Position numbers and translations under genes: made by a program
Shown: positions 14,853 through 40,143 of the stretch, in pieces
How the letters are laid out: each line of letters opens with the position of its first letter
How positions within the stretch are numbered: position 1 is the stretch's first letter
Assembly (NCBI GenBank): GCA_029532415.1
Contig: JAQOTA010000071.1
Location: forward strand, 310,001 to 374,000
Direction of reading: 5' to 3'
DNA: 64,000 nucleotides
Source of the DNA: Marasmius tenuissimus
Taxonomy: Eukaryota; Basidiomycota; Agaricomycetes; Agaricales; Marasmiaceae
The notes under the pieces: generated by a model
Database searches by the model: none
Told to the model about the DNA's origin: nothing
Seen by the model: the letters and a program-made list of their open reading frames with translations, nothing else

Positions 14853-14857
14853 GTTGC
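14853..14857. repeat. Copia target-site duplication, 3' side (GTTGC)
   Basis: GTTGC directly abuts the outer end of the LTR. Its partner is GCAAC (the reverse complement) at 33,897-33,901 outside the 5' LTR. The pair becomes a direct 5-bp duplication only if the segment between the two Copia halves is inverted back. Confidence 0.75.
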
Positions 14858-15115: not shown

Positions 15116-15124
15116 CTCCCCCTC
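15116..15124 (-). other. polypurine tract of the Copia element
   Basis: GAGGGGGAG on the minus strand, directly upstream of the LTR start TGTTGAATC, is the expected plus-strand priming site for reverse transcription. Confidence 0.65.
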
Positions 15125-15156
15125 GCTAAGTGCGGCACAAGGAGAGCACGAAGTGT

Positions 15157-16412: not shown

Positions 16413-17435
16413 AGCCCGGTGTCCGAGGCCCAACCTCGAAGGCGAGGTAAAAAGGCAGCTCAGAATGGTACGTACTTCATTACCTTCAGCTTTATTCATC
16501 ATTCTTATCATTGTAGTAGCCCCGCAACCGCAACGTTCCTTGTTTGAGGACACCTCCCACCCCATCCTCCCTCTCTTACTTCCGGCATTCGTTGGACTCA
16601 ATGCGACGATTGACGACACACCGGGTGACGAATTGTGCCTGGTAAACCCCCAAAACTCAAGTTGGTTGCCCCTGACCCGGCCGTGTTTGTGGGAACAAAA
16701 GAAGATGCCAAACGCGAGGTTTACCTTGCTGGCTGGCGTGATCTGCATACTTCGTGGATGGCCCATTGCCGAGCCTCGCCGCACCCCAAGACCGTGTCCA
16801 ACACAGTCTGGAGGAAGCTCCTTTTCCTTGGGTCGAGTGGCAGCTGGCCCGCCGGGAAGGTACCCTCCTCTTCGTCAGATTGCAACCATCACGAAGCTTC
16901 GATCTTACTTTCCTATACGCTCCGTGACTTCCCCCCATCTCTCCCCACCAATTCCTCTCCCCCAAGTAATGACGAGAGCAGGTTCATGATGCATGAACTC
17001 AGTGTCATCAACTTCCGGTTTCAATTGCTTGCTCTGGACTGTGTGCTTGATGAGACAGTGCCCCAGGCGTCTCATTTACTCTCGGAGGCTGACCTCGAGG
17101 TTTCAAGGCTTGTGCATCAAAGACGACGCACAGAGTTGGTTACGGAGTACTTTGGTGGCAGCCACGACACATTTTCCGTTCACGATGCAACTTTCACGTT
17201 AGGTTTTGCCACTGAGAAATGGTGTGACCATGTCGGCACCCTACGTGCCCTTGCGAAGTTGATGGGGTCTTGGCCTGGTGAGAAGGGTGGGATCTGGCAA
17301 CAAGGGGAAGATCCAAACCTTCCGCAGCTTGTCGGCCCCGGCATGGAGTGGGAGAAGACTCTGTACACGTTCTTTGTGCAGTCTTACTTCAACATCTTTG
17401 GATTTCCCCTGGTTCTCCCTCGCTGCCGCACATAG
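16413..17435 (+). pseudogene. unknown Agaricomycete family, C-terminal half (split from 38,440-39,571)
   Basis: After a basic stretch (RRRGKKAAQN) and an intron (GTACGT...TTGTAG, about 16,471-16,519) it reads RSLFEDTSHPILP. In a shifted frame from 16,635 it reads APDPAVFVGTKEDAKREVYLAGW, then HELSVINFRFQLLALDCVLDE, to the stop at 17,433. These blocks are the C-terminal part of a common Agaricomycete-only family of unknown function; the plus-strand gene at 27,546-29,484 has the same blocks (FELNFRQELLVLDSQL). There is no N-terminal half or promoter here. The missing half lies on the minus strand from 39,571 to 38,440, and undoing the inferred inversion would join them in the right order. Function unknown. 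Confidence 0.65.
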
Positions 17436-18027
17436 ACCATTTTTTGAGTATATCTTGTGTATGATACATCATCAGGGCAGAATGAAAGTACTACCATATC
17501 TCAGATAACAATTGCGTGACCAGTGTAAGGCACGAAAACTTCTGGTTCATTAGGATAGAGATTGGGAGTATTGAGATAGGTAGAGGATGAGGAACGTGAT
17601 GTGAGACTGAAGGCTTATGATGTAGATACTAGACGGTGAATTGCAGGGCTGCCACAAAACTCGCGTACGAGTAGCAGAAGGACCCATATGGGCAAGAGAA
17701 TGAATCGAGGGGTACATATACGTGGAGAGGTGATTGCGAGCTGAGTTGGGTGCGAAATAAGATAAGAAAGAGACGAGTTGAGAGACTTGGTGATATCGCT
17801 ACAGAATTCTGGACTTAGTGGCAAATAGGATACTCACCAGAAAAGTTGAAAATTTGTTCAAAAAAAAAGGTGTTATATCACGGTTTAAACCGGTTCGCCG
17901 CGGTTGAAACCAGTTCAAAACCGAACCAGCAGTACGGTTTGGCCAAACTGGTTTGACGTCACGGTCTGGTTCGGTCCGGAACCGGGTGCTTCAAACCGCC
18001 GGTTCTGCCCAAACGTTGACATCCCTA
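17436..18027 (-). mobile_element. hAT left terminus and 5' region, displaced by inversion
   Basis: On the minus strand it starts TAGGGATGTCAACG at 18,027, followed by about 150 bp dense in CCGG/AACC motifs. It then runs about 400 bp, with a GTGAGT donor near 17,835 and an ATG at 17,687 opening a short frame (MGPSATRTRVLWQ). It abuts the unknown-family gene at 17,435. The neighbouring octamer CCTCATGG at 18,028-18,035 is the reverse complement of the octamer beyond the hAT right end at 48,750. I infer this is the left end of the hAT whose transposase lies at 43,165-48,387. Confidence 0.65.
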
Positions 18028-18035
18028 CCTCATGG
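18028..18035. repeat. hAT target-site duplication, left partner (CCTCATGG)
   Basis: Reverse complement of CCATGAGG at 48,751-48,758. It would be a direct 8-bp duplication once the 22-kb segment is turned back. Confidence 0.65.
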
Positions 18036-18432
18036 CCACCTGGGGCTTTGAAGCCGACCACTACTACCATAAACGTCCGGATGAACACAGTGACAACAAC
18101 TTACAAGCCTCACTCAGCGACTGATTCCTGAAGCATGAATAACATCATTGCTCTATTGTTCCGAAACCTGCAGTCACAGTCAGTTTCTATTAACAGGCAT
18201 TGAAAGCAGCTGCAGAGTGCAAAACTGTGCAATGTATTGATAAGCTGCAATGTAACTGGGAAGTGAAAATGGGCACATAAAATCATCTACTACAATGACC
18301 AAAGTGTTTACAAGGACCAAGATTGTTGTTTCTAATCATTCCACTCAGTATAAGACTTCATAGCCTGAGGACAGTATGCCCTGCGTTGCTCACGCCACAA
18401 AGTAGCCTCCAGTTCCTCTCGGAAAATCCCAC

Positions 18433-18520
18433 CTGCCGCTGCGGCTGGAAGTACCGGACCGGGTCATGTAAGGCAAAAAACTTTTTTCCCATTTTCACGG
18501 AATTATGCAAAACCCAGTAA
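18433..18520 (+). repeat. 88-bp repeat, copy 1
   Basis: CTGCC.CTGCGGCTGGAAG through GAATTATGCAAAACCCAGTAA is repeated at 48,888-48,975 with only two differences, both CpG transitions. In the un-inverted arrangement the two copies face each other on either side of the hAT, so they look like terminal inverted repeats beginning TTACTGGGTTTTGC. Confidence 0.8.
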
Positions 18521-19354
18521 CGATGGCAAAGAATCTTCAAAGGTGATGTTTGCGGTTGCCTCTGGCCCTGCCCGGAACCAGTGTTATCAAGGCAGACTAC
18601 AAATCAAGTTCAAAACCCTAACCTATGTACAACCAAGAACAGACTTTTGTCGCAAATTTTTGGAAAGTGCATTAAAAGGCATTATAAGCGAATATCAGGG
18701 GGACCCCCCTTTTAAGGCCTTGTAAGGAAAACGATCAGCCGATAAGGTACCATATAATGTAGCTTGTAATGGAGATTTTATTGCATAATATTGTTAGCCA
18801 CTTTTCATTGAATGGTTGCCGGGCTAACCCATATAAGGTCTCAACTTGGCCAGGTAAAGCCATACAAGGGGCCTTTTATGACACATTACAAGGACCAAAT
18901 AATATACCAAACAAGACCTCCTAAAGATGGCAAAATCTTGGCCGGCACTTATATGCCGACCTAATTCCTTGGATCCCTCTGGTATTTGAACCCTCAACCT
19001 CATACTTAAGACCTAGGACCTTAATAGGACCTTATCCAAGTTGACGTTTTTTTCTACTAGGCCAAGCGGCCTTATTTGTGATATACGCTACCTCATATAT
19101 AACCATCCCCTGCACCACGTAATAACTAATAAAAACTCATTCACTGAGTGAGCGCAAGTTGTTGGACACAAAATCCTCATGCTTCTCTGGGTGTGGTTCA
19201 TGCTTCAGGTCTATTGATTGGTCACTGAGCAAGACCTACAAGAGAAATAACGAGGAGAAACAATGAAGAGATGACATTATACATACAAAGTCGCTGAAAA
19301 AACTACGTAGAATGTAAGTATACAAACTACAGTCAAGAAATAGCTGTCTACAAT
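18521..19354. other. intergenic stretch, no gene seen
   Basis: AT-rich with several TTAAGGCC/AAGGCC-like words and a CCCCCCTTTTAAGG motif that recurs in complement near 29,870. TGTCGCAAATTTT also recurs in complement near 29,895. This hints at shared miniature-element ends, but no boundaries were fixed. Confidence 0.4.
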
Positions 19355-21923
19355 CTACTCAGACTCCTCCTCATCACCATGGCACTCGACAGAGATGGAC
19401 TTCAGGTTGCTTGAGGCACCGTGGTGGGTGAGGCAGTGGATGGGTTGAGGTTCCGGAACCTCCTCATCCGTAGCAATCTCGAGAGCCTGAGCCTTTCGTC
19501 TCCCTCCACAGCCCCTTCCAGTACCTGCCCCACCACCCCATGCAGCACCAGGCGCATTGACCTTCCCACCGCCTACTCCACGACCCCGCCCAACCTTTTT
19601 GCCAGCAGTTGCCCCGCCACACTTTGTTTGACCTCCCTCCTGGGGTACCGTATTGCCTTCGAATACCTTGTCCTGAGGTGCTGGAATGTCTTCTGTGGGC
19701 ACTGTAGCATCCTCAGCCTGTGCCTCCGTGGTTTGGTCGGGGGTAGGGGTTGAAGTGAGAGTAGCTGTGGGAGTGAGTGGAGGAGAAGGGGCAGCAGAAG
19801 CAATAGGGGTTGCGTCTCCTTTGTCGTCGGAACCCATGCCGCCAATGACCTTCAGCATCTCGTTGACCTCAGGGTTGTCATTAGTTTCATTATCTACGAC
19901 AACCTCCAGAGCAGTACCAAAAAGGTGTTTGTTCCACAATGCGAGGGTTTTCTGGATGTGAGGGCTACCGGCGGTCACAATCAGAGTCTTCTTGTAGTAG
20001 TCAAAATCATTTGCATATTTGATTTGGCCAGATTTCGTGAACTCTTTGTCTTTGGAGAAGAGGAAACAAACCTGGGCATCAAACACCGCGAGTTAGAATA
20101 AAAGTAGATCAAGATATGGGACTCTGTAGTACTCACAAAGACTGCAATGAAAGCGATCAACCCAGGTGTCGTGGACTTGACATTCCAGAGCTGCCCATAA
20201 GTCTTCTTGGTCTTGGTGGCATTGGGTGTGATGGATTGAGGACCAAACAACAGGACTTTGCCGAACTATAGTTATGACTGAGCTTTGTAAAGAAAGCGCA
20301 AAGCAGAATAAACAAACCTTGTACATCTCTTCATTGTGGAAAAGACCGTTCGGATCCTGGATGTTAAATGACCGGAATAATACTGGCGGGAGGACCAAGT
20401 ATGTCTGGTCGAGGGGATTGAAGCCAAGTAACCTTTGGGCCTCAGGATGTTTGTTAGGATTGTGCGGATCGGATAGGGATAAGATAAGATATGGGATTTT
20501 ATATGCTGTCGGATAGATGGATAGGAAAGAGATATGATGAAGGAGTGTGGGAGCAACGGATCTAGAGCAGACAGTAGCTGAAGGTTTCGCCAACAGCACC
20601 ATGAACTGAGCTGTCCTTCTACTAGACTAAGAGGACAAGTTGCGAGAGAGAAGAAAAGACATTAGAGTCATGATGGGGATTGACCCAGATTGAAACCTGG
20701 TTGATTTCGAGTCTTCCGATACAGGATAGAAGTATAGAGCTTATATAGGGTTATAGTAAATGAATGAATGATAAGTGAGTCAAGTGCGGGAAAGGTTGAT
20801 GTATCATATGGAAGTCAAATACGGGGAGAAATGTACCGGAAGGGAAATGAACCGGAAATGAATAAGTGCGTGATGGAATGAAGATATGAATAGAATAAGT
20901 GAGTGTGGGAATATCTTGGAAGTCGGAGATAAGTAAGTCAGAATAAGTCAGAATGAAGAATAGAAGTAGTCGCGGAAGCGGAGGCAGAAATGGTGGAGGT
21001 TCCGGGGATGGACTTGGTGTGAGAGACTGAACCGCGGAAGTGAGGGTTGAGTGCCGGGGATGGAATAGTGTTGGAATGAGCTAGAATAATAGCCCGGAAA
21101 TACCCGGAAATACTCGGAATGGGTCTGGAGGTGATGTGACTAGCCAAGTGTGACGTGACTAGGTGAGATAGACCAGGGTAAGATGCATGGATGTAACAAT
21201 GTTCTGCTTGTTTGCCGGGTTCGCCGCGAGCGATGAAGAAGTTTGGGTATTCCCGGTTGAATGCCATGTAGATATTGCCGCCTGCCAGCTTCAACTGTGA
21301 GACAAGATTGGTTCGTCCTGAGTTTAGGCCTGACTGGAACTGCCAAAGAGATGAGAAATTGAACATGGTGAAGTAAAAGGAACGTACAGCCTTGATGTAC
21401 TTGGGCAAACGTCCCTTGAGCATGTCCAAATGCTCAGGAGTTTTGGGGATCACGTTGTATAGCTCCATGTACTCGCACTGTTCTCTCAACCTGGGATTTG
21501 TGTAACGGAGGACGTCATAGGGATCGGTGAACTCTGCCTCCTCGATTGAGCCGGTGTACAATGTGGGTTCCCAGGGGCGATACATCACCATGTATTTCTG
21601 GCCACTTTGTCTCACCTTGCCCTTCCGTGCTTCACTGGTTGAGGACTTGGAGGACGATTTGCTGGAGATGGAAGATCCAGCTTCTCCATCATTTTTCCTG
21701 TGGATGTGCACGTCTTTGAGCTGAGATGTGAGGGCCTGATTGTCAAGTCGGGACTTCCGCAATGCAGAAGCTAGGGCTTTCTGAACAAAGTCATGAGCTC
21801 AACGAACCCAGTGTGGTGACAGCAACGGAGACTCACGTTTTCATCCGCAACCTTGTCAAAATCGACGGGGGCTTCAGGCAGTGTTGCACTGACAGGCATA
21901 TTTGGACCGGGAGTACTAGACAT
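19355..21923 (-). CDS. DUF6698-like protein, multi-exon
   Basis: Agaricomycete-restricted family of unknown function, often found among TEs. Exon 1 begins ATG at 21,923 (MSSTPGPNMPVSATLPEAP), followed by a GTGAGT...TTCAG intron. The next exons encode a Ser/Lys-rich linker, then YMVMYRPWEPTLY and LREQCEYMELYNVIPKTPEH. An intron (GTACGT...TTGGCAG) follows, then GRTNLVSQLKLAGGN. The C-terminal core reads RLLGFNPLDQTYLVLPPVLF, a GTTTGT...TATAG intron, FGKVLLFGPQSI, a GTGAGT...CCCAG intron, then VCFLFSKDKEFTKSG. The tail is Pro/Thr-rich and Gly/Arg-rich (RGRG) to the stop at 19,355. The stretch 20,560-21,170 between the two core blocks is long and unclear, so an exon may be missed there. No stop breaks the clear exons. 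The DUF6698 name is from memory. Confidence 0.6.
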
Positions 21924-22234
21924 GATGGTGAGAGCAGGAAGAACAAAGAGATGTTACGAAGAACGGTGGTAGAGGAATGGTGGGGAAAGGGAATCATATC
22001 TCTGCCTTTTGTACTGTCTGATACGTGCTGCCTCATTTCTATCCAACTTGAGAAAAAACATATTAATTGACATGTTTATTGTAAGGTAGGAAGCATGTTC
22101 ATTCGTTTTCAGCGACTGCCATAAACATAGTGTACGAGCAAGTCAGCAGTGGGGTCCCAGATACACACATGAGAGTAATGAGACGTACTTTCTATAAAAA
22201 AAGCCATCGGGAATCAGAGGAACTGGTAGTCGCT

Positions 22235-25200
22235 TCAAAAGATGAGCGATTGCATTCTCATGAACATGTTCTCATTGATATCGTCCATGACAAAGTACTC
22301 ATCATCCCCGAAGTTCTGACCGTACCTCTCCACTAGTACTGCGCCTAGAATGATTATGCGCGCTGGAATGAAGTACGAGTCCTTTTGCATCTTTGCCTTC
22401 ACCCGATACAAACCCATGTCCTGGTCAACGGGTTGTGTACCCCTTTCGGTGCATCGTATGGGTGGACTAGGGCAAATTTGAAGACTTCCGAGTCTACTTT
22501 GCACTTGAAGAGGAAGACCAAACACGCAAAGATGACTTTACCGGGAGCAGAGCTGATAAGAACGGCATCATACCACTTGTTGCTGAAGAATTCGGGGTGT
22601 GCTCAAGAGAAATCACATTGAATCTCCCAGCCAACAAGGGACTGGTAAAAGTTTTTGATCAAGCGATGTTCTTGAATGATCTAAGAAAAGGGAATTTCGG
22701 AATTTGCTTGCCACTCAACCATGAAGCGAGGCCTTGCGACTCACCTCGTCTTCCTCCCCAAAACAGTATGACAGGAGGGGCTGTTTGGTGGTATACTTGT
22801 GTATAAATTCTGGGAGATACCGCTGAAACCGCAGGCAGAAGCCCCGAAACGCAGGGTTGTCCTTATAAGCCTCTTCCAGAGCTTTAAACGACCATGTCTT
22901 TCCGATAACAAGCATTGTGAGGCCTTCCGAGTCTGAGGCCAGCTCGCTGGGCTCCTCTTTTACTGCAAGACCAATGCCCTCCCCCGTTGTATTCGACACA
23001 CTCAAGTCGCACTGTGCTCTTGCCTCCTGTGGCACTAGCGGTGACGTTTTCTTGAGGGCTTCCTGTTGATCGTAATGGTCAAGACGTTGGTTGATGATTG
23101 ATGCGACATAAGCGCAATGATCGATGCAAAGAATCTAACCACTTGACTAAGTTCACAGCCATGAGGGAGCACAAGAAGATGTACCTGAGGTGCAAATTCA
23201 CGGAAATTAGACTGGAGTTGATAGGACTTTTTTAAGGGTCCATGCATGTTTTTGTTTATCTTGGTTGCAAAATTACACGCAGCACCTTTGTTCATTATGT
23301 CGTCGAAGACGTGCTTATATGTATGTGCCTTCGGAAAGTTCCATGAAGTATGCTTATTGCTCAACTGCCAGGATTCGACTGCCGCCTTCTCACTATACTC
23401 CTGTGAGATTGTCAGAATTCATTGACATTCTGGAGGATATGGCAGCCTGTTACCTGAATGAGCTTTGATAACTCGATTGCTGAGAGTCGTCCTTTTCTGA
23501 TGGTGTCCTTCGTATGTCGAGTGAGGGCTGTGTACATGTTGAAACACCTAAAGGCGTGCAAACACCTCAAGAGTAACCATCCGTTAGGATCACACTCTTT
23601 TGTCAACACATTGAGTGCACAAAACCCAGTTTGCTTTCATGACAGGAGAGTTAGGTCATGCAAAGCATAAACCAACCAACACGTACTTTTGCTATAGCCT
23701 CCTCCTTTGTTCTGTTCGTGAAATTCATTTCCATTATGTAGCTGAAGTGGGGAAGGCCACTCCACCGAGGAAACGCGGCCATTCTAACCGAGCAAGGTCA
23801 GTGTTCAGTACACGTATTAGGTGGTGTCAATGCCTACTGTTGATCAACCTTATCCATTGCACCTGTGCCGCAGCTTTTGATACGGGCCTGGAGTTCCAAA
23901 AGGAGGTGATGGAACAAGCCAATTGCAGCGTGAAGTCAGTCGTATGAGCATGCTAGATAGGGATTGGAATGATTGAGATCCCAGAAGAAGTTCTGCCGAA
24001 GACTTAAGTGCATCGCAAGGATCAGCATTGAGAAAGAAACATACCTCCACATTCCTTATGCCAGCCTCTTTCATTGCATCTGCATCTTCTGTTTGAATTA
24101 GGGCACGCATACTCTCTGTCATTCTCGCGGGGTACTCCTTTGAATGGTCTGATAATTGTTCTTTTGGCACGAGGCAGACTGGACAAGGTGCTTTCGAATT
24201 CGGGCCCTTCATGAGAGTGTAGAAACCTCTATACAACCGTGAATGAGATTCGTAGACCACTTATCGAGAGGTCGCACTTACTGTTTCTCATAATCGGAAG
24301 AGCTCATGGGAATACATGGCCACAGGTGGAGCTCCTCTTTGGGCTTGAACTCGAAATGAATCCCATACGAGTTGTTCTCCTTGACTGAACTGAGGATCAT
24401 TTCCATCTGCTTTTGCCACAAAATCCTCTTCAGCTCAATAAAGCCTTTCAGCTTCTTATACTTGGAGTTGTCCGGGATCTGATTTGTATGTCAAATTGAT
24501 ACACTGTGTAGCGGAGAGTTCGTCAAGAACAACTCACAATGTCAATCCAGCCGATCACTCGTCCTCCTCCTATGTTAATATTACTATTTTGCACAGCATT
24601 GTCAATGTTGGCAATTCGAGCGATGACTGGATAGCCCGTAGCTGAACCGAAAGACAAAAGTCTCGTCTTGTCAGAGTATACGATGTAGGCAAGGGGTTTC
24701 CCGCTGGCAGGCAGTGCGGACTATCAGATAGAAAGACTATCAGCCGATGTGCCTTTGATTCAATCGAGAGACGTACCTGTATTTCCCAAAATCTGTCCGC
24801 TGTCCAGGGCAATGAAACGAACCTCTCCCACCCAGCTCCGGTCCACCTGTACAACCGTTGAGCGTCCCAATGAAACCGGTGTCCAACAAGGGGATCTTCA
24901 AGGAGGTCCCGCGTTCATTTCCATGTGTCTCGTACATAACACAACAAGTTATACTCCACTTCCTCCGTGCCAGTTTTGAAACTGGGAGGTAAATCTTGCT
25001 TCTCGAACTATGAAGACGTGAGGTGCAAACCAGAAAGGGAACTAGAGGCAGAGCACTTACTGGCGTTGAGATATGTGAGGCTGACTCCCAAGCATCGCAA
25101 ACACTCTGGTGGTTTTTGAACAAAACTTTTTCGCCCACAGTTATCTGCTTGATCAATTGAAGGAGTACGTCAGTTAGGTTCTTATTCAAACGTGCTTCTA

Positions 25201-25863
25201 ACGCAAAATTTGCAACATCGAAATCGATCCGTGATAGGAATTGTGCCCATGGCTTCATTTTCAAGGGAGGTATTGCTGCCTGTTGCCGTTGTGACTTGAG
25301 ATATGATTGGAAAGGCATGACGTGATTGGGCGCCATGATTGATGGATGATGCTCGACTAAGATGTCATTCCCCACTGGCATGTACGACCTGCTGCAATAA
25401 GGTTCCCCGTTCCAAGCATCTGGGGGATTCAAGATGAGCAACGCTTGTAAACTCATACAAATGGTGCTTACCGAGAGTCAGCTCTGTTCCTTCTCCTTCA
25501 CTAGGCCACCCTCCAACATCGGCTTCATGATCGTGCCAAGCTTCGGCGGCTCCAGTCAGCTCGGGATCTAAGCTCGACGATGGGAAGCGCGCCTGGTGAA
25601 ATTCTGGAAGAGCTAAAGCTTTCTGTGAGCAGGTAAAAGCATGGATTTGAACACTACACACAATTTGCATGTCAATTCCTTGGTCTGCTAGAGCGTGTTG
25701 CATGGAACGCAGCAGTCCTCTGCGCATTCTCTTGGTTTTCTCTACATGCTTTCTGGTGTATACCGATTCCTCGTGCGCCCACAGAGGCCCCACATATTTC
25801 ACAGATTTTGTCAGGCATGGTGAAGGTGAGGAGAAGGTGATCGATTGAATCCATGGCCGGCAT
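22235..25863 (-). pseudogene. Plavaka-type transposase, degenerate copy
   Basis: DNA transposase of the Plavaka group (related to CACTA/EnSpm), common in Agaricomycetes. Exons in order: an N-terminal Cys/His module CEICGASVGARGIGIHQKAC (25,800s); PWAQFLSRIDFDVANFALEA (about 25,230); WTADRFWEIQ (about 24,780); SDKTRLLSFGSATGYPV (about 24,660); CIPMSSSDYEKQ (about 24,300); APCPVCLVPKEQL (about 24,180); NFFWDLNHSNPYLACSYD (about 23,970); WNFPKAHTYKHVFDDIM (about 23,320); MHGPLKKSYQL (about 23,240); and a C-terminal YFVMDDINENMF near 22,260. An in-frame TGA at 23,938-23,936 stands exactly where the family has Arg (SYD-R-LHA), and further stops and frame changes occur near 23,800 and 22,680. It is probably inactive. 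Compare the intact copy at 54,886-59,283. Confidence 0.8.
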
Positions 25864-27545
25864 ACAAGACTACAAACACTATCAATATGACATATTAACG
25901 TGTCATGAGTATCGTCCCCACGGGCTGAAGACGACCTTCTGAATATAGTTTGGGAGGCAGGCTTCCAAAGTCCACAAATATGAGTCTTTAGGTTTGCTAA
26001 AGGTGGTAGGAAGCAGGCTTACTTGAACAGAAACCTCTGCAAATCCTTTCACCGACGTCCTTTGCATACAGGGCAGCAGCAACCTTCATCCTCCAGGGTC
26101 GGGGTTTCCAGCTGCTTCTGCAGATCCATAGAGCCTGTCAAGACGCTTCTGAATGTCCAATTGGCGTGCTTTTCATCTCTGAGTAGTACTAAACATCAGG
26201 TTTTGTTGAATAGATTGAAGCGCAAACGACTTACCACTCCGGGAGTAAATATGAGAGCAAGTTTTTGAGACTTTGGAGCCGTTGAGGGTTGACATCCAAG
26301 CCAAAGTGTTTGAAAGGGTTATTCCGAGAGACAGGGCATAGGTCAACACCGTACACTCTGTAAAACGTTGGTGTAAATCACAAGTGATTGGTGCAAACCA
26401 TATCACAGAAAACAGCTTCCTATATCTGAAGATCAGCGCAAACTGAATAGGTCAGCAGCCAGAATGCGGCTTACCAGTTTGGTGTATCCTGAAAATGGAG
26501 GTACGTCCCTGAATATCGCCCAAGTCGTAAGAAATTCTGAGGATATGAGATGACATTGGCGGGGGCCAAATGCGCTATAGAACGTCGGCGTGAACCAGAC
26601 GTTATGTGGTTGGCACAAACCAGACCACAAATTGCGGGGTAAGAAGGTATAGAGCAAGCGGAAAGTGTCGTGGTGGTGGTTGAGAAGAAAGAACTTTGTT
26701 GTGACATCAAGTCACGTCCAGTGATCTCAATGTGATCTGATTGTCACTCCATTCCAAACCTTGCCTCTTGACCAGAACCTTGCAACAATGCAAGTAAGTC
26801 ATTCTGACAGCCAGTTTGTCTCTTTTTGCTCACAAAAAAGATATCAGTTCATCTCCAAATCAAGACTTCATCCTCTGGACCAGATTGGACGGTTCGTGCT
26901 GCCAGTCTTGCGATATGATTTCAATCGGTCGCTTTTGACCCAAAGACTCACATCTTGGTTCAAGTTATTGTCTCTCGTTTCGTCTTCAATGCGGTCTTTT
27001 CTGTTACCAGGTGCGTGACTCGCCTTCCTGCTGTTTTTCTCGTCATGGAATCTTCCCCACAGATACCATTATCTCACAAGTCCTCTCAGGTTCCGCCTGT
27101 TCATGTTACATATAAAGTACATGTTCTAGCTTCTATTACCTCTCTCAGGGAGTCTCACACACTTGCTAATAGGATTGTAGACCCTCAAGGTGACGCGTTT
27201 TCTCACCATTACTTTGAACTAGACGGTTTGCGCCGCTAGTTTTGCGATACGATCACTATCGGTCGCTTGTGAGTCCAAGGCCTTCACTTGGCTTGCAGTT
27301 TGCTTGGCATATCTCCTTTGGCCTCAGAGACTGAACCACCATCTATTGTTTCTCTAGATCTCTCTGATGAGTTCTTCGATCCCCGATTATGCCTTCTCTC
27401 ATGCCCTGGAGACACAAGACTTCTTGAAAGATCCTTCCCTCCTCACTCGCTATGCCAATCCCGATGCCCGTGTGTTCTGATCCATACACTGCTTACCTAC
27501 CTCTGCTAATTCGTATACTCAGCTATACGCTCATTCGAAGGTCAA
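25864..27545. other. stretch without a firm gene
   Basis: Short frames only. About 26,160-26,060 on the minus strand gives an exon-like piece (CCCPVC). About 26,365-26,415 and 26,580-26,635 are related to each other (AAACGT.GG.GT.AA and GTG.TTGG..CAAACCA), an internal repeat. About 27,376-27,480 on the plus strand has a short protein-like frame (PDYAFSHALETQDF) upstream of the next gene and may be its 5' part. Confidence 0.35.
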
Positions 27546-29484
27546 GTGGGAAATGCTTACCCTGGAAATGTTCTGATCACTTCCCCCAACATGGACGTCC
27601 TGTACACACCTCCAATCAATGACTGCCGTGTTCGAATACAAAAAGACTTCCATTTCGGCCAAGATGATCCTTTCTTCCATCCACAGCCCTTCAGTCGTCC
27701 TATAGCCCACCTTGCGGTTATCCTGACACCATCTTCTGATCCTACTCACAGCCTTTCAGCGGCTTGGGTACAACCTACCTCAGAGGATTTTGAGGAGAGG
27801 GCAGCCTTGGACGTGTGCAAAGGTTTGGGGAGACTGTCCCGTGGTCTGTACTGGAGGTTTCATGCTTTGGCGTCCACCATTCTCGAAAGGTCATCCAGCA
27901 AGAGCGAAGACATATATATTGGCGTGCAGTCGACCCAGCTCTGCTCGCTGCTAGAACAATTTGAAAGTCAATGGGCTTCCAAAAGTGTTACCTTCCTAAG
28001 ATTCACATCTGTACAGTGTCAATGTCTCGAGCTCCTGGCCAGACACGACTGGGTGGATAGCTATCAAGAGTGATTTATGGTCAGAGGAATTGGAGACAAG
28101 GTTGTTCCAGTCAACCAAGAGATCATGGGGGCTTTTTTGGATGACTTAGATGTGGTAGACTGTCTCTTTAATGCGGGTATTCCAGTGTGGTACACACGTC
28201 CGATCTCTCAGTCGCTAGATGTTCGTATCAACAAGGCCGTAATATTCATCACAGAGAATCACTGGCAGATGATCGAGCTGCATAGTGGATACGAAGTTGA
28301 TCTGGTGGAAGCCCAACCCACGGCTTGTGTCATTTACACTGGGCTTGCCAACAAAGCCGAGCGGTATCACACAATGGCCAACTTCGTACACTTGTTGCTC
28401 CAATACCCTTCCCTTTTTGGTTCTTCTGAGCCTCAGAGCTCGACATCTCTGCTCAGGACATCACTTTCCTCCTCCTCCGTTGTTCCTGGCTCTTCACAGG
28501 GCGCACCTTGTAAGTCAAACACATAGCCTTTTCCTTCATCACCACCTCAAATATCTACATAATTGCCTAGATGCAAGAACAGGGAAAGTTCTGGTGTCTA
28601 GCAAGCATGGCGTCAATATGTTCCTTGATCCTGTTTCGCATTTGATGCCCCCCCAGTGTCCCAGCATGGAAGTCAGCCCTTGAGGCTCTATCCAGCTACA
28701 ATAGCACTCTTCCTGCACCGGACAGTGTTGGTGGTGGGTGTTTTCTCCCTCCCCCCGTCTCTTTATCAATTCTCAGAGGGACGAAACCAAGGTCACCTTG
28801 ATCATTACTTGGCTCAAACTGCAGCAAGTTCTCCTGTACCGCCTCTTTGTAGAGTCTCGGCGATTCTCAAACAAGCAGTGGTGAGCTCTCCTCCTAGGTG
28901 CCAATCCTGGAGCTGGTCCCTCGGACCCAAAACAAGTGTCGCACTCGAAGGAAATGCGTGAAGTTTTACAGGACTTCATTCAAAAATCCGGCCTTTCACT
29001 CAAACCTGATAATCTAGACGGCATAAAGCCCTCATGGGAAGGGATGAAACTCGAAGAGGGCCAGCTCCCCTCCTCCCGAATTGTCCACGAGATCATGTGT
29101 GAGCTCTTTGAGCTGAATTTCAGGCAGGAGTTACTGGTACTTGACTCCCAGCTCAATGGAAGCAGCATGTCTTTGTTCAACAGATGGTGTCTTCTGGATG
29201 CATGTTGGGTTTGCTCTGCAGATCGTACACCCAACATCAGTTGCTCAGACGGACTTGGTAATGATTTGATCCAGGGCTGGTCACCTTACCTTGCTGCCCT
29301 CCCTAAGGTGATGTCGACGTGGAGAATATCGAAGCCAATGGAGCTGCTCAATGCCTTTCCTAACAACAAAACCGCTCACAACCATTATGCCACCGTTGAA
29401 CGGGTAGAACGTGCACTTGCGTCGTCCTACACCAGTGCCACGTTGGATATATTCAGTCATGCATCAGTCCCACATTCCCTTTGA
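27546..29484 (+). pseudogene. unknown Agaricomycete family, near full-length copy with stops
   Basis: Same family as the split gene at 38,440-39,571 plus 16,413-17,435. N-terminal block: FGQDDPFFHPQPFSRPI. Middle block: NQEIMGAFLDDLDVVD, then FNAGIPVWYTRP. C-terminal blocks: VPAWKSALEAL (about 28,640), YRLFVESRRFSNKQW (about 28,840), and FELNFRQELLVLDSQL (about 29,110) to the stop at 29,484. A TGA at 28,071-28,073 (a CGA-type site) separates the first two blocks, and another TGA follows KQW near 28,888. Frame changes near 28,560-28,780 may be introns. It has no enzyme signature I can name. It is useful as the template showing the N- and C-terminal halves belong to one gene. Confidence 0.6.
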
Positions 29485-30038
29485 TAGCCGGGCTTCTGGG
29501 GTTGCCTTTCAGACTACGGTGCATGGTTTTCGCGAGTTTTCTTGTCAACTACTAAAAGGAGGACTCCGTCACTATCTTGGTCGTAGGACACCGTTTTTGC
29601 ATACACCCATCATGTCGTTGTTGTGGTCTTTTGTACAATATCTTTACCCACAATTCTATCTAGATGTCTTTGCTTCAACTCAGTTCATACCCTGAACAAC
29701 CTGGAGTGACCTCTGACTTGTCTACGTGCTAACAGAGGTGTCGCCGCCATTTGTCGTTCCTTGTTGGATGTAAATAACGTACAGCTGTGGTAAATAACGT
29801 ACAGTCTGTGGCATATTAGGCCCTTTTAAGTAACTAATTAAGGGCGGACCGCTACCAAATCAGGCACCCCCCCTTAAAAGGCTGCCTGAAAATTTGCGAC
29901 ATTATCACGCACCTTCATGCACGTTTTCTCTGTTGGTTCTGTCCTTCGTGATACAGAAATCATTATTCTCCTCATAGTCAGAGAAATTGCATCTGTGTAA
30001 CTGGGTGCCTGCTACTGAGCAGCAAGAGCTGAGTCAGT
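29485..30038. other. intergenic stretch with a short tandem duplication
   Basis: GTAAATAACGTACAG occurs twice in tandem (about 29,770-29,805). The C-run CCCCCCCTTAAAAGG near 29,870 and TTTGCGACA nearby echo words at 18,640-18,720 in complement. No gene seen. Confidence 0.4.
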
Positions 30039-30309
30039 CCGCTGTAAAGCGCCACTCGCGGTGTATAATATAATCTAACTCGTAGGTCAAATCCTCCCAA
30101 CACTCAAGAGTGTAGCTGAAGGGTGCGGGAATCGGGGATCGGCATTGATCGTAGGTTCCGCTCTTAGCCAGACTGCAATGGTAGGCTGAAAGAAATCTGA
30201 CTCAAGAAACTATCCAACTAAGGTAGCTTTGCCTCTGAAACCAGTTCGGGGTCAAAAGTGGGGTTTGGAAGAGAGGTTTATAGGTTAATTCGGGGAGTGT
30301 AGAGTTTGT

Positions 30310-30603
30310 TTGGTGCTTCGGAAGTGCGTTCTTAGGCTTCAACTAGCTTCAGAACCACTCAAACAGCAAGGAGCAACAAGACAATCAAATCAAACAATGG
30401 CAATAAGACTCCAATCAAGTCTGTCAATGACCGAAGACCAACTGTCAACGGCGAACAATATCCTCAGCTCAATTAGCTTCGGAGGTTCAACAATAGCTCA
30501 GCCAGTCAAGTCGGCGTCGCAGACAAACAATGCAAAGTCAAGGTCAAGCAAGTGTTCAATGGATTTTCTAGGTTTGGGCAAACAAAGTTCTATTCTGTTC
30601 TAA
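30310..30603 (+). other. 97-codon frame of element AB, copy B
   Basis: Identical in translation to 7052-6759 in copy A. It opens MVLRKCVLRL and is Ser/Thr/Gln-rich with no motif. It overlaps the region expected to be transcribed the other way from the TATA box near 30,722, so protein status is doubtful. Confidence 0.3.
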
Positions 30604-31574
30604 TGTCTCTCCAGAAGCGCTCCCGAGTCAACTGACTACCCAACAAGTGGAATAGCTTCGTATCCTCTGAATACTAATCGTACAGATTGCTTGGGGATTC
30701 TTAATGAAAACCCCACTGCTTATATACCCTAGGAGGCTCTAATTCTACTGAATTGTACAAATATCGAATAAACCATGCCTCGGAGGCATAAACTACCTAC
30801 TTTGGAATATACTTGGAGAGTTTTGTCTTTAATCTACGCTTTTGAACCCCAAAGTCAAAACCAATAATTTGCTTCGGAAGTATCATCAGCCTCGAACATT
30901 CTCTAACATTCTTTTCTTCCGGGTCTCTCCTATTGATGGTTCTGTTCTGCCTATCTGCCTCTGCAGCATTGATTCTCCAGTTCTAGACTCTTCAATTGTC
31001 ATAGGTCATCCTGTTCTATCTGCCTCTGAAGCGTATACTCCCTTTGTCTGAATCAAAGTACTTGCCTCCGAAGTGCTACTATATGCCTATATGCATTTAG
31101 TTACCCAGCTGTCCATAGCCAGGTTGATGTCCTTTCTATAGCTTGGATAGTTCTGATGTCCTGCCATCCATATGGTCGCCCCACTATATCCAATCTTGGT
31201 GCCTTGGATACCAGGTAATAGTTCAATGGTTCAGCCAGAACTCCCACTCGATTCTTTGGTACACCATTCCTTTCTTTCTAGTCCCTTGCCTCCCAGTGCA
31301 GTTGAGCACTGTGTTTTGCCACCAGCACCAACTATGCCTTAGTACAGTCAATATCTCCATGTACGAGTACAAGGGAGGTACCTCGACGGTGCAACTCCTT
31401 CGATCACTTCTCGATCATTGTTTAGCGCCCAGTGCCTGGTTCGGATCCACGCCTCCGAAGCGCTAATTTCCTAGTTTCTGAAGTAAAATTTCCATTTCAG
31501 CGGCCAGTCCAGAGGTCAGTAAAAGCAAGTGCTAGGTTGTCCCAATTCCTTGCTTACTTTTCCCTGAGCGTACT

Positions 31575-32269
31575 ATGGCACGCTTGCATAACATTGAAGA
31601 CCACTTTCGCAACTTACTCTATAGTAAGCCTTTCTACTTTCTAGATTCCGAGGCGGCCTTCTGACTTCCTCTCCAGAGTTGTATAAGCTCTGGTGGTATC
31701 CAGAAGATTACTCTGATAAGATCAAGGAGCGCCGCATCATCCTACCCATTCCACTCGATGCAGAACGAGAAGCTATCCTTGGAATCATCTTCCAGCAGTT
31801 CTTCCTCAGTCGCCACAGATCCGTCTACTGGGGCTACGTGATTCGTTACGACATGATCCAGGACGAAATCTATCTCTGCGAGGACACCTTTGACCACTTC
31901 ATTCCTCACAACGCCAGGTCTGTCATCGACATGGTCGCCGAGTCCATGGCTCGAGTTGGTTTCCTTGACTTCAAAACCGCTCGTACTCCTGGAGCCGTCA
32001 ACGCTTGGATCGACGCCGTCGTCAGCTGTGCTGAGTGCCCAGCACCTCCGAAGCTTGACTATACCAAGCTCTCGTTCTTCAAGTATTCCCCTGTCATGGG
32101 TCATTGGCTCTCTCAATCCTTTTCTTTCTATAATCCTATTTTATGCGATCCATTCTATACCGATTATCTAGATCATGAAACCTTCATTGATTCTTATTAT
32201 CCTGAAGATTCCGACGTAGATAATTACTTCGGTTGGGATGAGGTAGCTCTAGCCAATATGGATGACTAG
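31575..32269 (+). CDS. two-exon gene of unknown function in element AB
   Basis: Exon 1 (31,575-31,623) starts ATG and encodes MARLHNIEDHFRNLLY. The intron 31,624-31,676 (53 bp, GTAAGC...CTCCAG) leads into exon 2 (31,677-32,269), for about 213 residues in all. Its conserved parts include WWYPEDYSDKIK, FFLSRHRSVYWGYVIRYDM, YLCEDTFDHFIPHNARSVID and DFKTARTPGAVNAWIDAVV, with an acidic tail (YYPEDSDVDNYF). The donor is kept as GTGAGT in copy A, which supports real splicing. It is rich in W, Y, D and F and looks like a folded protein, but I recognise no family. A capsid-like or passenger protein is possible; that is only a guess. Confidence 0.55.
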
Positions 32270-32747
32270 CGTAACCTGTAGTATACCTAGTATACTTGAA
32301 TTAATCATGCCTCCAAAGCGAGGCCTCGACCTTATACCAAGCTTCTGAGGCTCGACTTAGTCTCGCTTTCCGACCATCCATGCTTCTGCGGTGACCTCCT
32401 CTGTCTATCCCTACTAGTACGGGTCTTCGTTAAGTCTGATTCTGTTATTCGAATCCTTAGTACAATGCCTCCAAGCCACTGGAGATATTCCCTTGTTATG
32501 ACTACAGGTCCTAGTCGTGCCTCCGAAGTGATACTTTCGTCAGTTATACGACTCCTACAGTTTTCAGAGATAAGGAGAGACGCCTCTGAGGCGCTATTCT
32601 CTCCTTATGCTAGGATCTGAGCCTTTTACTAGCCGCTCGGGACTCACTCTAGTACTTGTATTACCTAGTCATTTCTTATCTGTTTTATGCTAAAATCGCA
32701 CAAAACAAGGCTCCGAAGCTGCTTTTTAATAGCAGGCGCTACACCGC

Positions 32748-33896
32748 TCAAGTAACTCCCGATGGCAACAACACCCTTACCTTTTTATTCATGTCTCCAA
32801 GTGAAGGCCATCTGGAACTTGGATGTTTACTATATAGCTCTTGAGAGTAATGGTTAGTGAAAAAGTGAAATAGTTAACAGGAAACTTTATAGTACCTATT
32901 GATTACTATACAGTACTATATAGTGCTGTATAGTAGCTTCTTTACTGAGGGTTTGGCAAGGATCAAGGGATATTTGGCCAATCAGAACCCTCGGGGCCAT
33001 CACAAGTATGACATGACATCCAGTCCGCCAAATTGGACACAGGACAGTATGTCGCGTCTGACTCTATGGAATACCACGTCTCCGACGCGTCAATGGTATC
33101 AGAAGTTCTGTTGCTTGGATTCTTCACTGAATATACTGTAATATTCAAACAATATTACATACAGAAGGACGAACTACGAGCCAGACAGACATAAAATTTG
33201 AGAGATAAAATATATACTGGGCTTCCACAGAAACCTGGGACCTTGAAACTGACATGAGAATTTGACGACACTTAGGTCAGGCCAAATCACTTACTTGAAG
33301 AGTCTCGCAGACTACTTGAGTTGGTGCTGGGGGGGTGATATTGAGGGTCCTGGGCAAGTCCAATCATTCACTTTAAAATCAGACTTGGTGATTGAAAACT
33401 TACCTAGGATATCTTGCACCAGGCAGGTCGTCAGATGTGGAGATGGTGAATTGTGAGTCAAATTTGACATGTGTTCGACAATTGCGACACCCCTTAGCCC
33501 CCATGGTTGCATAGTAATTTTTCATTGGACTATAGCATCAGGAAATTGGGGTCTGGTGCTGGGACAACCTGGGAAGGCAAACACTGGACCAGATTCCCTG
33601 GTGACTCTGGGGACGCCAGGTTGGTCCAGGTTGACCCAAGCCAATGCAAGTTGCCAGGTTTGCCTGGGCAAACCTGACCCAACTTAGAAAGTTGGCTGTC
33701 AGAACAGATTCCCAGGACAGGCAAGGTCAAATTAAGGATAACCTAAGTGTTAATGCATATAGCATGCAGGCTCACAGGTATGCTGTCTACTCTTGTGCTG
33801 AATGGTTTATGGTTTGCTCACTTTTAAGTTACAGACCTATCATCCTTATTCTTGACCAACATACCTCCCTACTCTTTTCATTTTCCAATACATATT
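32748..33896. other. non-coding stretch with miniature-like repeat
   Basis: AT-rich palindromic words (ACTATACAGTACTATATAG) lie at about 32,913-32,935. About 33,520-33,700 repeats the 12,315-12,490 unit (GGACTATAGCATCAGG, GGTCTGGTGCTGGGACAAC, many CCTGGG/CCCAGG). No gene seen. Confidence 0.45.
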
Positions 33897-33901
33897 GCAA
33901 C
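33897..33901. repeat. Copia target-site duplication, 5' side (GCAAC)
   Basis: Directly outside the 5' LTR. It is the reverse complement of GTTGC at 14,853-14,857, as expected if one inversion separated the element's two ends. Confidence 0.75.
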
Positions 33902-34148
33902 TGTTGAATCCAGACTACCAGATATATCAACCGTTGTATCAGGCCACATCTATGCTTTTCACTATGATCTATGCTATTCCTAGTCACTCCTGTTATAGTA
34001 GCTCCACCTCTGTATAGTATATAAGTAGATCTGTATCTACATGCAATACCAGTACTTTTACTACTCTCATTGCTGCCTCTAAGCCTATCTCCAGGTGAGC
34101 TAGTCTGTCCCATGCTGCCACTGCGTGGGCAGGACCTCTGCCTCAACA
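33902..34148 (+). mobile_element. Copia 5' LTR
   Basis: Starts TGTTGAATCC and ends CTCTGCCTCAACA. Homologous to 14,858-15,115 in reverse. It is followed at once by a primer-binding site and, after about 240 bp, by gag, which makes it the 5' LTR. Confidence 0.85.
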
Positions 34149-34160
34149 GGTTATGGGCCC
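34149..34160 (+). promoter_or_regulatory. primer-binding site matching the initiator tRNA-Met anticodon arm
   Basis: GGTTATGGGCCC directly follows the LTR. It is complementary to GGGCCCATAACC, the anticodon stem-loop of eukaryotic initiator tRNA-Met, not to the tRNA 3' end. Drosophila copia and several relatives are known to prime with such a half-tRNA. Confidence 0.75.
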
Positions 34161-34384
34161 CGGTGCCCTATTGATGTGCCCTGCAATGGCAAGCTCTCTA
34201 GGACATGCACCTTTACTGAGTGCTGCCTATGATGATGCACTATTGTGGTTGTTGCACTTGATAACCATCATGACTGCTTAATCGCTGTCGTGATGGGCAG
34301 ACCGTTCACACCGGTTCTGGATCTGTGAAGTCGACATCTTCATTGATGTTTGACGATGGTGGAATGTGTCCTCAACAATGACCA

Positions 34385-35386
34385 ATGGCTATCGCTGTTG
34401 ACCATGCAGTGATTTTATTTATCATTGCTTATGATGATGAACCTATGCTGATTGTTGTTTTATTACTCCAGACCGCTATGGCTCCTGTTATGTCTACCCT
34501 CATTGCTACTGTTGAAGTATTCAATGGTGTCAATCCTCCTTTTCGCAAGTGGTCCAAAGGTCTTTCCACCTATGCGATGATCAACAAGTTTTACGACCAT
34601 TACACTGGGGAAGCTAAGATCCCTGTTGCACCAGTCAAACCAACTGCTCCAGTACAACCTCAACCAACTATGACCATGACTGGGACTGGTGAGAGTGCGC
34701 AGGAGACTATTGTTCCTATTCCCACCACCACCATGACCTGGTACCGTGCTGATGTTGAGAAGTATGAGAAGGATGTTGAGAAGTGGGAGAAGGACATGGA
34801 GAAGCATGACAAGGTTATGTGTTGTTGGAAGAAGCTTGAAAACAAGGCTATTGGTGCATTACAAGCCACTACCACACTTGCTGTGCAGACTGTCATGGAT
34901 GACAACACCTTCTCTGCTAAACAATGCTTTGATGCTATCAAAGAGAGGTTTGCCACAAGGACTTCTGTCTCCGTTTGGGCAGACTCCAAGACAATCATGG
35001 ACTTTTGTTTGTCTGGTGGCAACCCCATTCCCGAGATTGCCAGACTCAAATTTCTTTTTGATCAACTCTATGAAGCCTCCATTGAACTTCCTGATGTCAT
35101 TAAAGCGATGCTCCTACTCTCCATTCTTCCTCAACAATGGTTGAATGCTTGTGAATTCACTACGAATGGCAACTCCCCTTCTGAGCTTACTTTCAAAGTT
35201 GCTTGTGAAGCTGTTGTTAACCATTACAAAGCCTGGAAACCTGCTCCTCTTGGATCATGTATCTCCTCTGTTAAGAAGAAGGACAGGGACCCAAAGCTTA
35301 ACCAACAGTCCTCTCCTCCTTTGTCATCGTCTAACAATAACAACCAGTCCAATAATGACAACGACCAGAAAAAGAAGAACAACTGA
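34385..35386 (+). pseudogene. Copia Gag
   Basis: Capsid-type Gag of the Copia group: VFNGVNPPFRKWSKGL near the true start (an internal ATG at about 34,478 is more likely than the first one), a Lys/Glu-rich helix (EKYEKDVEKWEKDMEK), then FDAIKERFATRTSVSVW and PEIARLKFLFDQLYEA, as in the UBN2-type Gag domain. The tail is Asn/Gln/Lys-rich. The frame ends at TGA 35,384-35,386, but the same frame continues after it with a basic GRKKKGDSQ stretch into pol. The stop is therefore probably a decayed CGA inside a once continuous Gag-Pol. No CCHC knuckle was noticed before the stop. Confidence 0.8.
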
Positions 35387-35473
35387 CGTGGCAGGAAGAA
35401 GAAGGGTGATTCTCAGGACAACAAGGGTGACTCCTCTCACAAGGGTCATTCTCATATCGCATCCCTCGCTCAT

Positions 35474-38439
35474 TTGTCCATCTCCTCACCGCCCATCGTT
35501 CCTGACACTCCATCTGTCATACATCCCGTGGATCGATCCTGGGATCCACTCCACATGCAGTGTTTCTCTGGTGCTACCTTGGGTGGTACTGTTTTTGAGA
35601 ATGCTCAGGCTGCTCACAGTCTTGCCGATTGTCTTGGTGTTCCCAAGTATGCCCACGTCCTTGAACCTATGAAACAGGGATATGCGGCTGCTTCCTCTTC
35701 CTCCCTGAAGCATTGTATTGATGGTCCCTCCTCCACTGCTCCATATGCAAAGCGTGCTAAGAGTGTTGAGAAGGTTTACGACCTCCATGATTCCTTCTAT
35801 GCGGACTCCAACTCTGAACGTGAGGATCATATCATGTTGAACGCTGTTAACGATTCTTTGCGTACAGAGACTGCAAGCAGAAGTGCCATGGACGTTGACA
35901 GTGAGATTGCAGATGCCACTGGTTTTTCTGACGATGTTGAGTACGATTCGGTCTCCATCGGATCTGAGGAATCTGACTATGACAGGCAAGTGCCTTATCT
36001 CAGTCTCTCATCTCACACTGATATGAACCTACAGTGCACTGATCTTTTGGCCGCTTCTAAATGTAGTCGTTCTAGTATCGTGTCCCATATCAAATTTGCG
36101 CAATATATTGGTAATCACTTTGCCACATGCGCTAATTGTAAGGGAAAGAGAGCGACTGGAAACTTGCAAGAGTGGATTGTCAATTCAGGTGCTTCATCGC
36201 ACTTTACTTATGATCTCAAAGATTTTGCCGAGTATGAACCCATGAACAATGGACCACAGCTAAACACTGTGAACAAGGACAACCCTATTCAAATTAAGGG
36301 GAAAGGGACTGTGTTCATTGGTCATTCTGTTGAAGGATCTGACGGTCATATGGAGGAACACATTATGCAACTCTATCCTGTCTATTATGTTCCACTTCTG
36401 TCAATTTGACTTCTCTCACTTGGAGAATTCTTGCAAGGTGGTCTGCAAGTACGTGGATTGTCTAGCAAATTGGCTTTTTATAACAAGGGTCAATGCCAAT
36501 CATTGGTATCTTACCCACTTACGCCTGGTCAAACCATCTTTTGGGTTAGCTCACAGAAAGCTTCTGCTCGTAGCTTAATGACCAAGACAACAATGGATAA
36601 AGTTGACTACAAGACTCTACACAGATGTTTCAGACATTGTTCAGACAAGGCTCTGGATAAAGCTCGGAAGCATACTAAGAACTTCCTGGAATTCGACTGA
36701 AAACTGAAGAAAACCTGATTATGCTGAGGATGTGCAGAAGGAAAAATGCACTCCAAATCGTTCCCTGACTCCACTACCTGTGCCTCGAAACCCTTCGAGA
36801 AAATCCACTCCGACCTCAAACAATTCCCCACTGAGTCATACCACAAATACAAATGGTATATGTTGTTTGTCAATGACTGTACTTCACATGGCTGGACAAT
36901 GCTCATGCAACACAAATCTGACTCTGTCAAGATGCTCTGTGACTTTATTGCTATGGTGAAGGTGCAATCTGGTGTTGATATTAAGGAATGGATGTCCGAT
37001 GGAGGGGGAGAGTACAAATCGGATGCCTTTGATGATGTACTAAAGGAGCACAGTATCGAAATTCTGACCAACATTCCATATACACCGGAACAGAACAGTT
37101 GTGCAGAACAGTTCAATTGGACCATTGTCAAGAAAGCTCAAGCTCTTTGCTTTGATGCTTGTCTTCCACCTTCTTGGTGAGAATTCTGTGTGTTGCATGC
37201 TGTTGTACTTCACAATCGGATGCCGTCCCAGTGCTTACGTTGGTTGATCCTGCATGAGAAGTTACATGGCAGTGCACCAGATGTCTGATCTCTGAGTCTT
37301 CGGATGTGCAACGTATGTGTTTATTCCGGAAAAGTGTTGAGTTAACAAGTTATCCCTGCGTTTGGAACTGATGACCTTTATCAGTTTTCAGGAAGACATG
37401 AAAGGATATGTCTTCATGAAGATGTCTAATAATGCTATCTTCAAAAGCGCTACTGCTCTGTTTGATGAAAACTTGTTCCCGAAGTGTTCTGATCAGAAAC
37501 CTTGTGGCTTTACCCCAGTGGGTGAAATCCCTGAAATACCACCAGTATTGGGTGAAAATCCCAACTTCTCTTTGGATAGTGATGATGATTTGTCTGATGA
37601 CGATCTTTATCCTCCCGAGAACCTTCCAAAGCAATTTGAATCTCCGCATGACGATGATGGAGATGGTACTGTACCTCAGGGTGAACATCAACATCCTGAT
37701 CCTGATCCTCCAATTCAGCCTCCCAGGCCACCTACACCAGTGGGTGGACAAGAGCAGACTCCACCTCCAAGGCATTCAGGCAGAACTCAGACGGGTACTA
37801 AGCAACCTGATAATGTATTTGGTGAACAACAAGACCCAAATAATCCCTCGCACATTGTGCGTGATATGGAGAAAACTTCTACATGGAGAGATGCCACAGG
37901 TGATAGAGAACCCATGGATCCACCTACTACTTGTAGGAGAGGCAGACCTAGAAAAGTTCCTGGGACTAATTGTGCCAGTCTGTCTACCATGTGTAACTCC
38001 AGGGGGAGTCAGCCCAATAGCTTAGTGCAACAATTATCCCAGGAAGGGGGAGTAGGTTTCGTGATTTATCTGTTAAATCAGGCAGTTCCCATTCACAATG
38101 ACCTCACTGATATGTCTAACATTCGAGAGTGGACTCTCTGTGACATACTGAAGCTGCCAACTGAGCAGCAGAGAGAATGGAAGGCTGCTTGCTGTGATGA
38201 ACTAGAGGCTCTTTGCAGGTGCAAGGTTTTCGAATTGGTTGACCTACCTCAAGGTTGCAAGGCTGTCAAGAATAAATGGGTGTTTGACGTCAAGTCAGAC
38301 GGTCGAAAGAAAGCTTGACTTGTTGCCAAGGGTTTCTCTCAGGTCAAAGGTGCTGACTTTGATGAGATCTTCTCACCAGTTGTGCGGTTTGAAACTGTAC
38401 GGATGATGCTCACATTAGCAGCTCTCAAAAACTGGGGGT
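35474..38439 (+). pseudogene. Copia pol, N-terminal half (protease, integrase, start of RT), broken
   Basis: Domains in order. Protease near 36,170: the active motif reads WIVNSGASSHFT, with Asn where the catalytic Asp should be. GAG-pre-integrase region near 36,730 (GCAEGKMHSKSFPDS). Integrase core 36,790-37,180 with KPFEKIHSDL, WMSDGGGEY and a decayed ENS..AEQFNWTI (normally NGVAER.NRTI). An acidic/Pro-rich linker with RRGRPRK follows, then the RT start KWVFDVKSDG and LVAKGFSQVKGADF. In-frame stops lie at 36,407, 36,725, 37,178 and 38,316; several stand where Arg CGA is expected. The frame then stops abruptly at about 38,439, where the unknown-family gene begins on the other strand. The rest of RT and RNase H is at 16,412-15,157. 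Confidence 0.85.
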
Positions 38440-39571: not shown

Positions 39572-40143
39572 TGCGACGAATACGCAAGGACTGGGTGATC
39601 TAGAGTGTCACTTAAAGTTTCTTGAGGACAGGCACGCAACAATCGTTGCAGCCAAGGGAATGTTAAGAGAGCAAACGGTTGGGGCGGACGTGATGTTCGA
39701 ATCAGGGAGGGAGGCCGACCTTCGTTGAGGGGATGGTACAACGGGTAAAAGTCGCTCGAATCACTTCAAGGACAGTGCGCGCAAAACGTTTTTGTGGCTC
39801 TGGAGGGCCTTGCAAGGGAGAGGAGAGAGGAAATGCTGTAAAATATGTTACAATATGTTAGTATGTACAATAATATCGAAATAGAAAAGACTTACTTATG
39901 ATTTTGAGGGACGTTGGGGGGAACGGGGCTTTGTGGGCGTCAACTTGAGCTGTATGGGGTGGGCATTGTGTTGTGTGTACAGTGCCGCCTGTTTGTGCAG
40001 CTGTGTGAACCTTAATCGTGAACCTTAATTGTGAGAACTGCGTGTAGTTCTCACAATTAAGGTTTGCACAGCTCAGCTCAGCCCTCAGCCCTCCCCACAC
40101 TGTCTGCTTAACGCCCTACCCTTCCCACTGCCGCCAACGTCTC
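39572..40143. other. upstream region with a perfect hairpin
   Basis: Lies between the divergent start of the unknown gene and the interrupted plus-strand exons. It contains AACCTTAATTGTGAGAACT (40,021-40,039), a 6-base loop GCGTGT and the perfect complement (40,046-40,064), with further imperfect pairing outward (AGCTGTG/CACAGCT). It may be a regulatory or terminal structure of the hAT element. Confidence 0.5.

Follow-up and report, generated by a model that had tools for sequence, protein, structure and literature searches.

One 22-kb inversion as the probable origin of two split transposons in a genome assembly of Marasmius tenuissimus

How do a Copia retrotransposon and a hAT transposon, lying in the same stretch of a fungal chromosome, each come to be present as two widely separated pieces? 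The question is raised by a window of 64,000 bp, positions 310,001–374,000 of contig C27 in a 71-Mb, 70-contig assembly of Marasmius tenuissimus. This fungus is reported as a cause of cacao thread blight (PMC11053350); no published account of the assembly itself was found in the literature searched. An earlier interpretation, made from the letters alone (hereafter the sequence-only reading), proposed that a single inversion of positions 16,413–38,439 explains four split structures. To follow this up we let intact copies and unoccupied insertion sites at other places in the genome stand in for the un-inverted allele. We conclude, with a probability of roughly 0.94, that one inversion of about 22 kb, joined by end joining, followed the insertion of both the Copia and the hAT element; the conclusion is drawn from one assembly. 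The inverted segment measures 22,043 bp (16,393–38,435, no strand assigned) and its ends are known to within a 3-bp TGG/CCA found at both junctions.

The 3′ piece of the Copia element (14,858–16,392, minus strand, 1,535 bp) comprises the end of the reverse transcriptase, the downstream part and the 3′ LTR (14,858–15,115, minus strand). The 5′ piece (33,902–38,435, plus strand, 4,534 bp) holds several open frames and comprises the 5′ LTR (33,902–34,148, plus strand), gag, the integrase and the start of the reverse transcriptase. Both LTR termini were read by eye. A Pfam search placed RVT_2 at 15,826–16,227 in the 3′ piece (profile positions 137–242, E = 6.5e-14). In the 5′ piece Pol_BBD and rve, the integrase core, were above the cut-off, with Retrotran_gag_2, SH3_retrovirus and RVT_2 (profile positions 2–30) below it. 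Directly outside the LTR ends lie the flanks GTTGC (14,853–14,857, plus strand, outside the inversion) and GCAAC (33,897–33,901, plus strand, inside it). As claimed in the sequence-only reading, these are reverse complements and become direct once the segment is turned. For comparison, in a sample of 200,000 position pairs drawn at random from the window, 5-bp reverse-complement matches had a frequency of 0.0012. The element thus shows LTRs, a 5-bp target duplication, RVT_2, and an integrase that precedes the reverse transcriptase, the last being the defining order of Copia (Ty1-type) LTR retrotransposons.

Where exactly was the Copia element cut? We compared 300 bases from each break with the genome, scoring the best 40 of 372 candidates for the 3′ probe and the best 40 of 395 for the 5′ probe. 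Among the matches listed, 39 of 39 non-self rows for the 3′ probe stop at query positions 278–280, corresponding to window positions 16,390–16,392; for the 5′ probe 39 of 39 stop at 294–296, or 38,433–38,435 in the window. Since similarity to the other copies ends at 16,392 and 38,435, the bases 16,393–16,412 and 38,436–38,439 belong to the side of the gene and hAT and not to Copia. The cut points proposed at first, 16,413 and 38,439, are therefore not correct as they stood, but they shift by just 20 and 4 bases. The window's 5′ and 3′ pieces adjoin, with one TGG in common (a 3-bp overlap), in 28 of 28 other loci representing 23 distinct places, a count that leaves out the window's own three loci; in one of the 28, L020, the match to the 3′ piece is limited to 24 bases. 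In these uncut copies the TGG (CCA) occurs once, whereas in the window it occurs at both junctions.

A complete Copia copy elsewhere that matched the pieces better had been named as evidence against an inversion. With one 300-base probe per break no such copy emerged among the best 40 of 372 and of 395 candidates: the closest non-self match there is 95% identical for the 3′ probe (on C62) and 94% for the 5′ probe (on C10), and these two are different copies. It counts against the reading that no unoccupied insertion site of the Copia element was found. The candidate considered, a 45-bp repeat at 10,775–10,819, does not run on into the other Copia flank.

What lies on the other side of the two cuts? 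The right piece of a hAT transposon (16,393–18,027, plus strand, 1,635 bp) ends in the terminal inverted repeat TAGGGATGTCAACG, and the left piece (38,436–48,750, plus strand, 10,315 bp) ends in the other, TAGGGTTGCCACTGG, both read inwards. The 8-bp target-site flanks, CCTCATGG (18,028–18,035, plus strand, inside the inversion) and CCATGAGG (48,751–48,758, plus strand, outside it), are reverse complements as had been asserted, and direct once the segment is turned; in the same sample of position pairs a match of this length had a frequency of 0.00001. The C-terminal dimerisation domain of hAT transposases, PF05699, was located at 48,061–48,231 (C27:358061-358231, plus strand, E = 2.4e-9), marking the transposase end. 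The built-in control of this search, over 14 genomes, gave no match, no other transposase domain was found in the frames tested, and a complete transposase was not read. Two short relatives that retain both ends (L023 and L025) have 8-bp duplications of their own, as judged by eye. The possibility of a better-fitting hAT copy elsewhere, also raised by the sequence-only reading, was pursued with 16,393–18,040; none of the 17 candidates scored is a further complete copy of it. Nested within the hAT element, at 40,341–41,987 on the minus strand, is a Tc1/mariner-like element with 233-bp inverted ends (98% identical) and the domains DDE_3 and HTH_Tnp_Tc3_2.

The 8-bp target duplication and short terminal inverted repeats are those of a hAT transposon, and likewise the TAGGG..TG.CA ends and the PF05699 domain. 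The window's element differs from other hAT transposons in carrying, on the opposite strand, a second gene that does not encode a transposase; to our knowledge none has been described with such a gene.

This second gene is the one that is split. Sequence comparison places its N-terminal half at 38,436–39,571 (minus strand) and its C-terminal half at 16,393–17,435 (plus strand), the latter apparently interrupted by an intron. By eye, the C-terminal half also shifts frame upstream of about 16,629, and two TGA codons were counted in it. An unsplit paralogue on C10 (L045) has both halves in order, at protein identities of 56% and 58%, and also has stops. The frame change shows this copy to have been, or to have become, broken; because of it and of the stops in the C10 paralogue, the continuity of the gene is read from aligned sequences, not from an uninterrupted frame. 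Further homologues span the same two halves. A protein of M. oreades (P0006) matches the N-terminal half over residues 8–225 (46%) and the C-terminal half over 310–571 (48%); one of Marasmius sp. AFHP31 (P0004) does so over residues 23–361 (44%) and 432–625 (37%). The public M. tenuissimus model PM082_015663 (P0001) is 99% identical to the N-terminal half over 93% of it, and its own C-terminal end consists of a few residues read from Copia antisense; the inversion accounts for this chimeric gene model. The other M. tenuissimus protein set contributed a single hit, AAF712_016310 (P0002, 55%), and this resembles the C10 paralogue, not the window's copy. Pfam gave no match for the two halves and nothing convincing for six homologues, the sole hit being Nakanori at E = 0.18 in one of them.

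Into what was the hAT element inserted? The stretches 18,028–18,520 and 48,751–48,975 (neither assigned a strand) together make up a dispersed repeat whose inverted ends, of 88 bp each, lie at 18,433–18,520 and 48,888–48,975. In 11 of 11 non-self loci examined these two parts adjoin around a single 8-bp site. The site is exactly CCATGAGG in nine of the 11; in five loci (L057–L061) the next four bases differ too, so that 12 bases stand between the aligned flanks. By this comparison the dispersed repeat is a related empty site for the hAT element. Within the window it is divided between the inside and the outside of the inverted segment, as an inversion predicts.

Is a single inversion sufficient to account for all of this? 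Turning the segment restores the Copia element, the split gene and both target-site duplications to their normal order, which supports the single event originally claimed. The repeat holding the hAT element was not in the original set of markers, and its order is likewise restored by one inversion. The junctions are reciprocal, and turning the segment brings back a contiguous order, as expected of a simple two-break inversion; the pieces were compared separately. A 23-base pattern across the left junction occurs once in 71 Mb, at this locus (genome pattern search), and only the window itself spans the right break among the rows of the similarity search there. The four markers first put forward as unrelated do agree on one event, but they reduce to two transposons, each cut once: since the split gene lies inside the hAT element, it is not a separate marker, although both its halves are real and are cut at the same two points, the C-terminal one being frameshifted. 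With the dispersed repeat there are at most three, the third not being wholly independent of hAT because the target site is common to both. As the inversion cuts the Copia and the hAT element alike, it is younger than both insertions. Such an event belongs to an ordinary class. What distinguishes this one is the exactness with which it can be read: with two insertions and an empty-site repeat, a single assembly suffices to place both breakpoints to within 3 bp, and no comparison strain is needed. Nested transposons can thus be used for reading the history of a rearrangement.

By what route did the segment come to be turned? We infer a real event in the living fungus, not an artefact of assembly. 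The Copia and hAT elements would both have inserted in normal form. Two chromosome breaks would then have arisen, one in the Copia reverse transcriptase and one in the hAT-carried gene, and end joining, as opposed to repeat recombination, would have put the 22,043-bp piece between them back in reverse. Ectopic recombination between copies of a transposon is a known route to inversions, and here too there are transposons at both breakpoints. However, these are unlike transposons with no detected common sequence, and they were cut, not mediating the exchange. When the 1 kb around one break was compared with that around the other, no similarity at E ≤ 1 was found. The lack of shared sequence, together with the unique left junction, makes recombination between repeats unlikely, while two double-strand breaks and end joining fit. 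In two studies (PMC6861252, PMC7584159) inversions in Drosophila are attributed to breaks at non-homologous sequences followed by end joining. The inversions discussed there resemble the present one in having two breaks at unlike sequences and a reverse rejoining; they differ in that ours is small (22 kb), fungal and seen in one assembly as against population data.

The doubling of TGG suggests a staggered break. The break in the Copia element would have been staggered by three bases and filled in, so that TGG was copied to both junctions; small end duplications are to be expected with staggered breaks. Might the same inversion instead have been joined through a 3-bp inverted microhomology, the gene site already having had a TGG facing the Copia CCA, with nothing duplicated? 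This too would leave CCA/TGG at both junctions, as seen. Yet once the extra 3 bp are removed, the gene junction region has the length of the C10 paralogue (by eye). That agreement with the length expected when the gene has no additional bases favours the staggered break, weakly, the linker being poorly conserved. We regard joining by microhomology as possible, at somewhat less than an even chance.

Could the assembler, rather than the fungus, have turned the piece? The region is rich in repeats and one assembly is the sole source of the evidence, both of which invite the suspicion that a piece was placed in the wrong orientation. Such errors are expected where one repeat stands inverted at both ends, whereas here the neighbourhoods of the breakpoints have no match to each other at E ≤ 1, the two Copia junctions correspond to within three bases and the other break falls in low-copy sequence. 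An assembly error is therefore improbable. Recombination between inverted transposon copies is more improbable still. The window does contain a pair of similar inverted copies, at 5,078–7,318 and 30,043–32,744, but neither is at a breakpoint, and inverted homologous repeats at both breakpoints, the mark of a repeat-mediated inversion, are not what was found. Moreover, since one copy lies outside the inverted piece and the other inside, the two were in direct orientation before the inversion. We also considered that there was no inversion at all and that unrelated truncated Copia and hAT copies were inserted separately, both families being multi-copy. This would call for reciprocal truncation of two elements at the same two points, for target duplications matched by chance and for a break in the host repeat at that very site, and we give it hardly any credence. 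Of 248 aligned bases in the window's two Copia LTRs, 240 are identical, and there are 11 gap columns; the comparison was between these two LTRs only, so that their agreement has no bearing on the case of unrelated copies. An inversion by end joining, with the staggered break weakly preferred, is the reading that we retain.

What of the gene that the hAT element carries? The genome holds 49 stretches matching the split gene at E ≤ 0.001, some of them weak, and homologues occur in Marasmius, Stygiomarasmius and one further source (7,999 candidates sharing most words scored). Six relatives have nearly equal scores (C28:1261719, C32:955680, C14:314565, C49:49868, C34:525384 and C62:265778). In a second copy, on C62, the last residue of the gene lies 121 bp from the start of a matching hAT end, which is 69% identical to the window's over 170 bases. 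In the window the corresponding distance is 427 bp, of which 296 are a short dispersed repeat between the end of the gene and the right end of hAT (17,563–17,858, no strand assigned), leaving 131; in both copies the spacing between gene and hAT end is thus much alike. That the gene rides only on hAT is contradicted by the relatives on C28 and C32, the two of the six that were compared, which lie in long, near-identical DNA (99.6% over 3,990 bases from the end of the gene onwards). No hAT end was found in this shared DNA, and Pfam gave no match for eight C28 frames. The shared stretch is possibly part of a large mobile element. We tentatively suggest that the gene family travels on mobile DNA, and that it may be a companion gene kept by the mobile elements of this group of fungi because it is helpful to them.

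The inverted pair of transposon copies is itself of some interest. It was tried as an LTR pair cut by the inversion and rejected, each copy having both its own ends (by eye). Between 6,228–7,227 and 30,135–31,135 the two copies differ at a single one of 1,049 aligned bases (1,048 identical) across seven blocks of 150 bases (30,185–31,234); past these blocks identity falls sharply, to about 88–95% per block. Other full-length copies of the 30,135–31,135 transposon are 95–96% identical (38 among the matches listed). The near-identical tract looks like one of gene conversion. By eye, the left copy (5,078–7,318) is flanked by CCAG/CTGG, reverse complements and not a direct duplication, a pattern that may be due to chance; the flanks of the right copy are direct, CCGC on both sides. 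On C5 the 30,135–31,135 repeat occurs three times (3500452, 3507485 and 3514518) at intervals of exactly 7,033 bp, which suggests a tandem array. Elsewhere in the window, an inverted repeat at 59,612–59,901 (130 bp, 100% complementary, 30-bp spacer) lies near a Plavaka transposase frame (57,721–59,286). A 141-bp tandem repeat (53,054–53,574) is found inside the open frame 52,956–54,143, which is directly followed by a frame with a T5orf172 domain (54,144–54,551).
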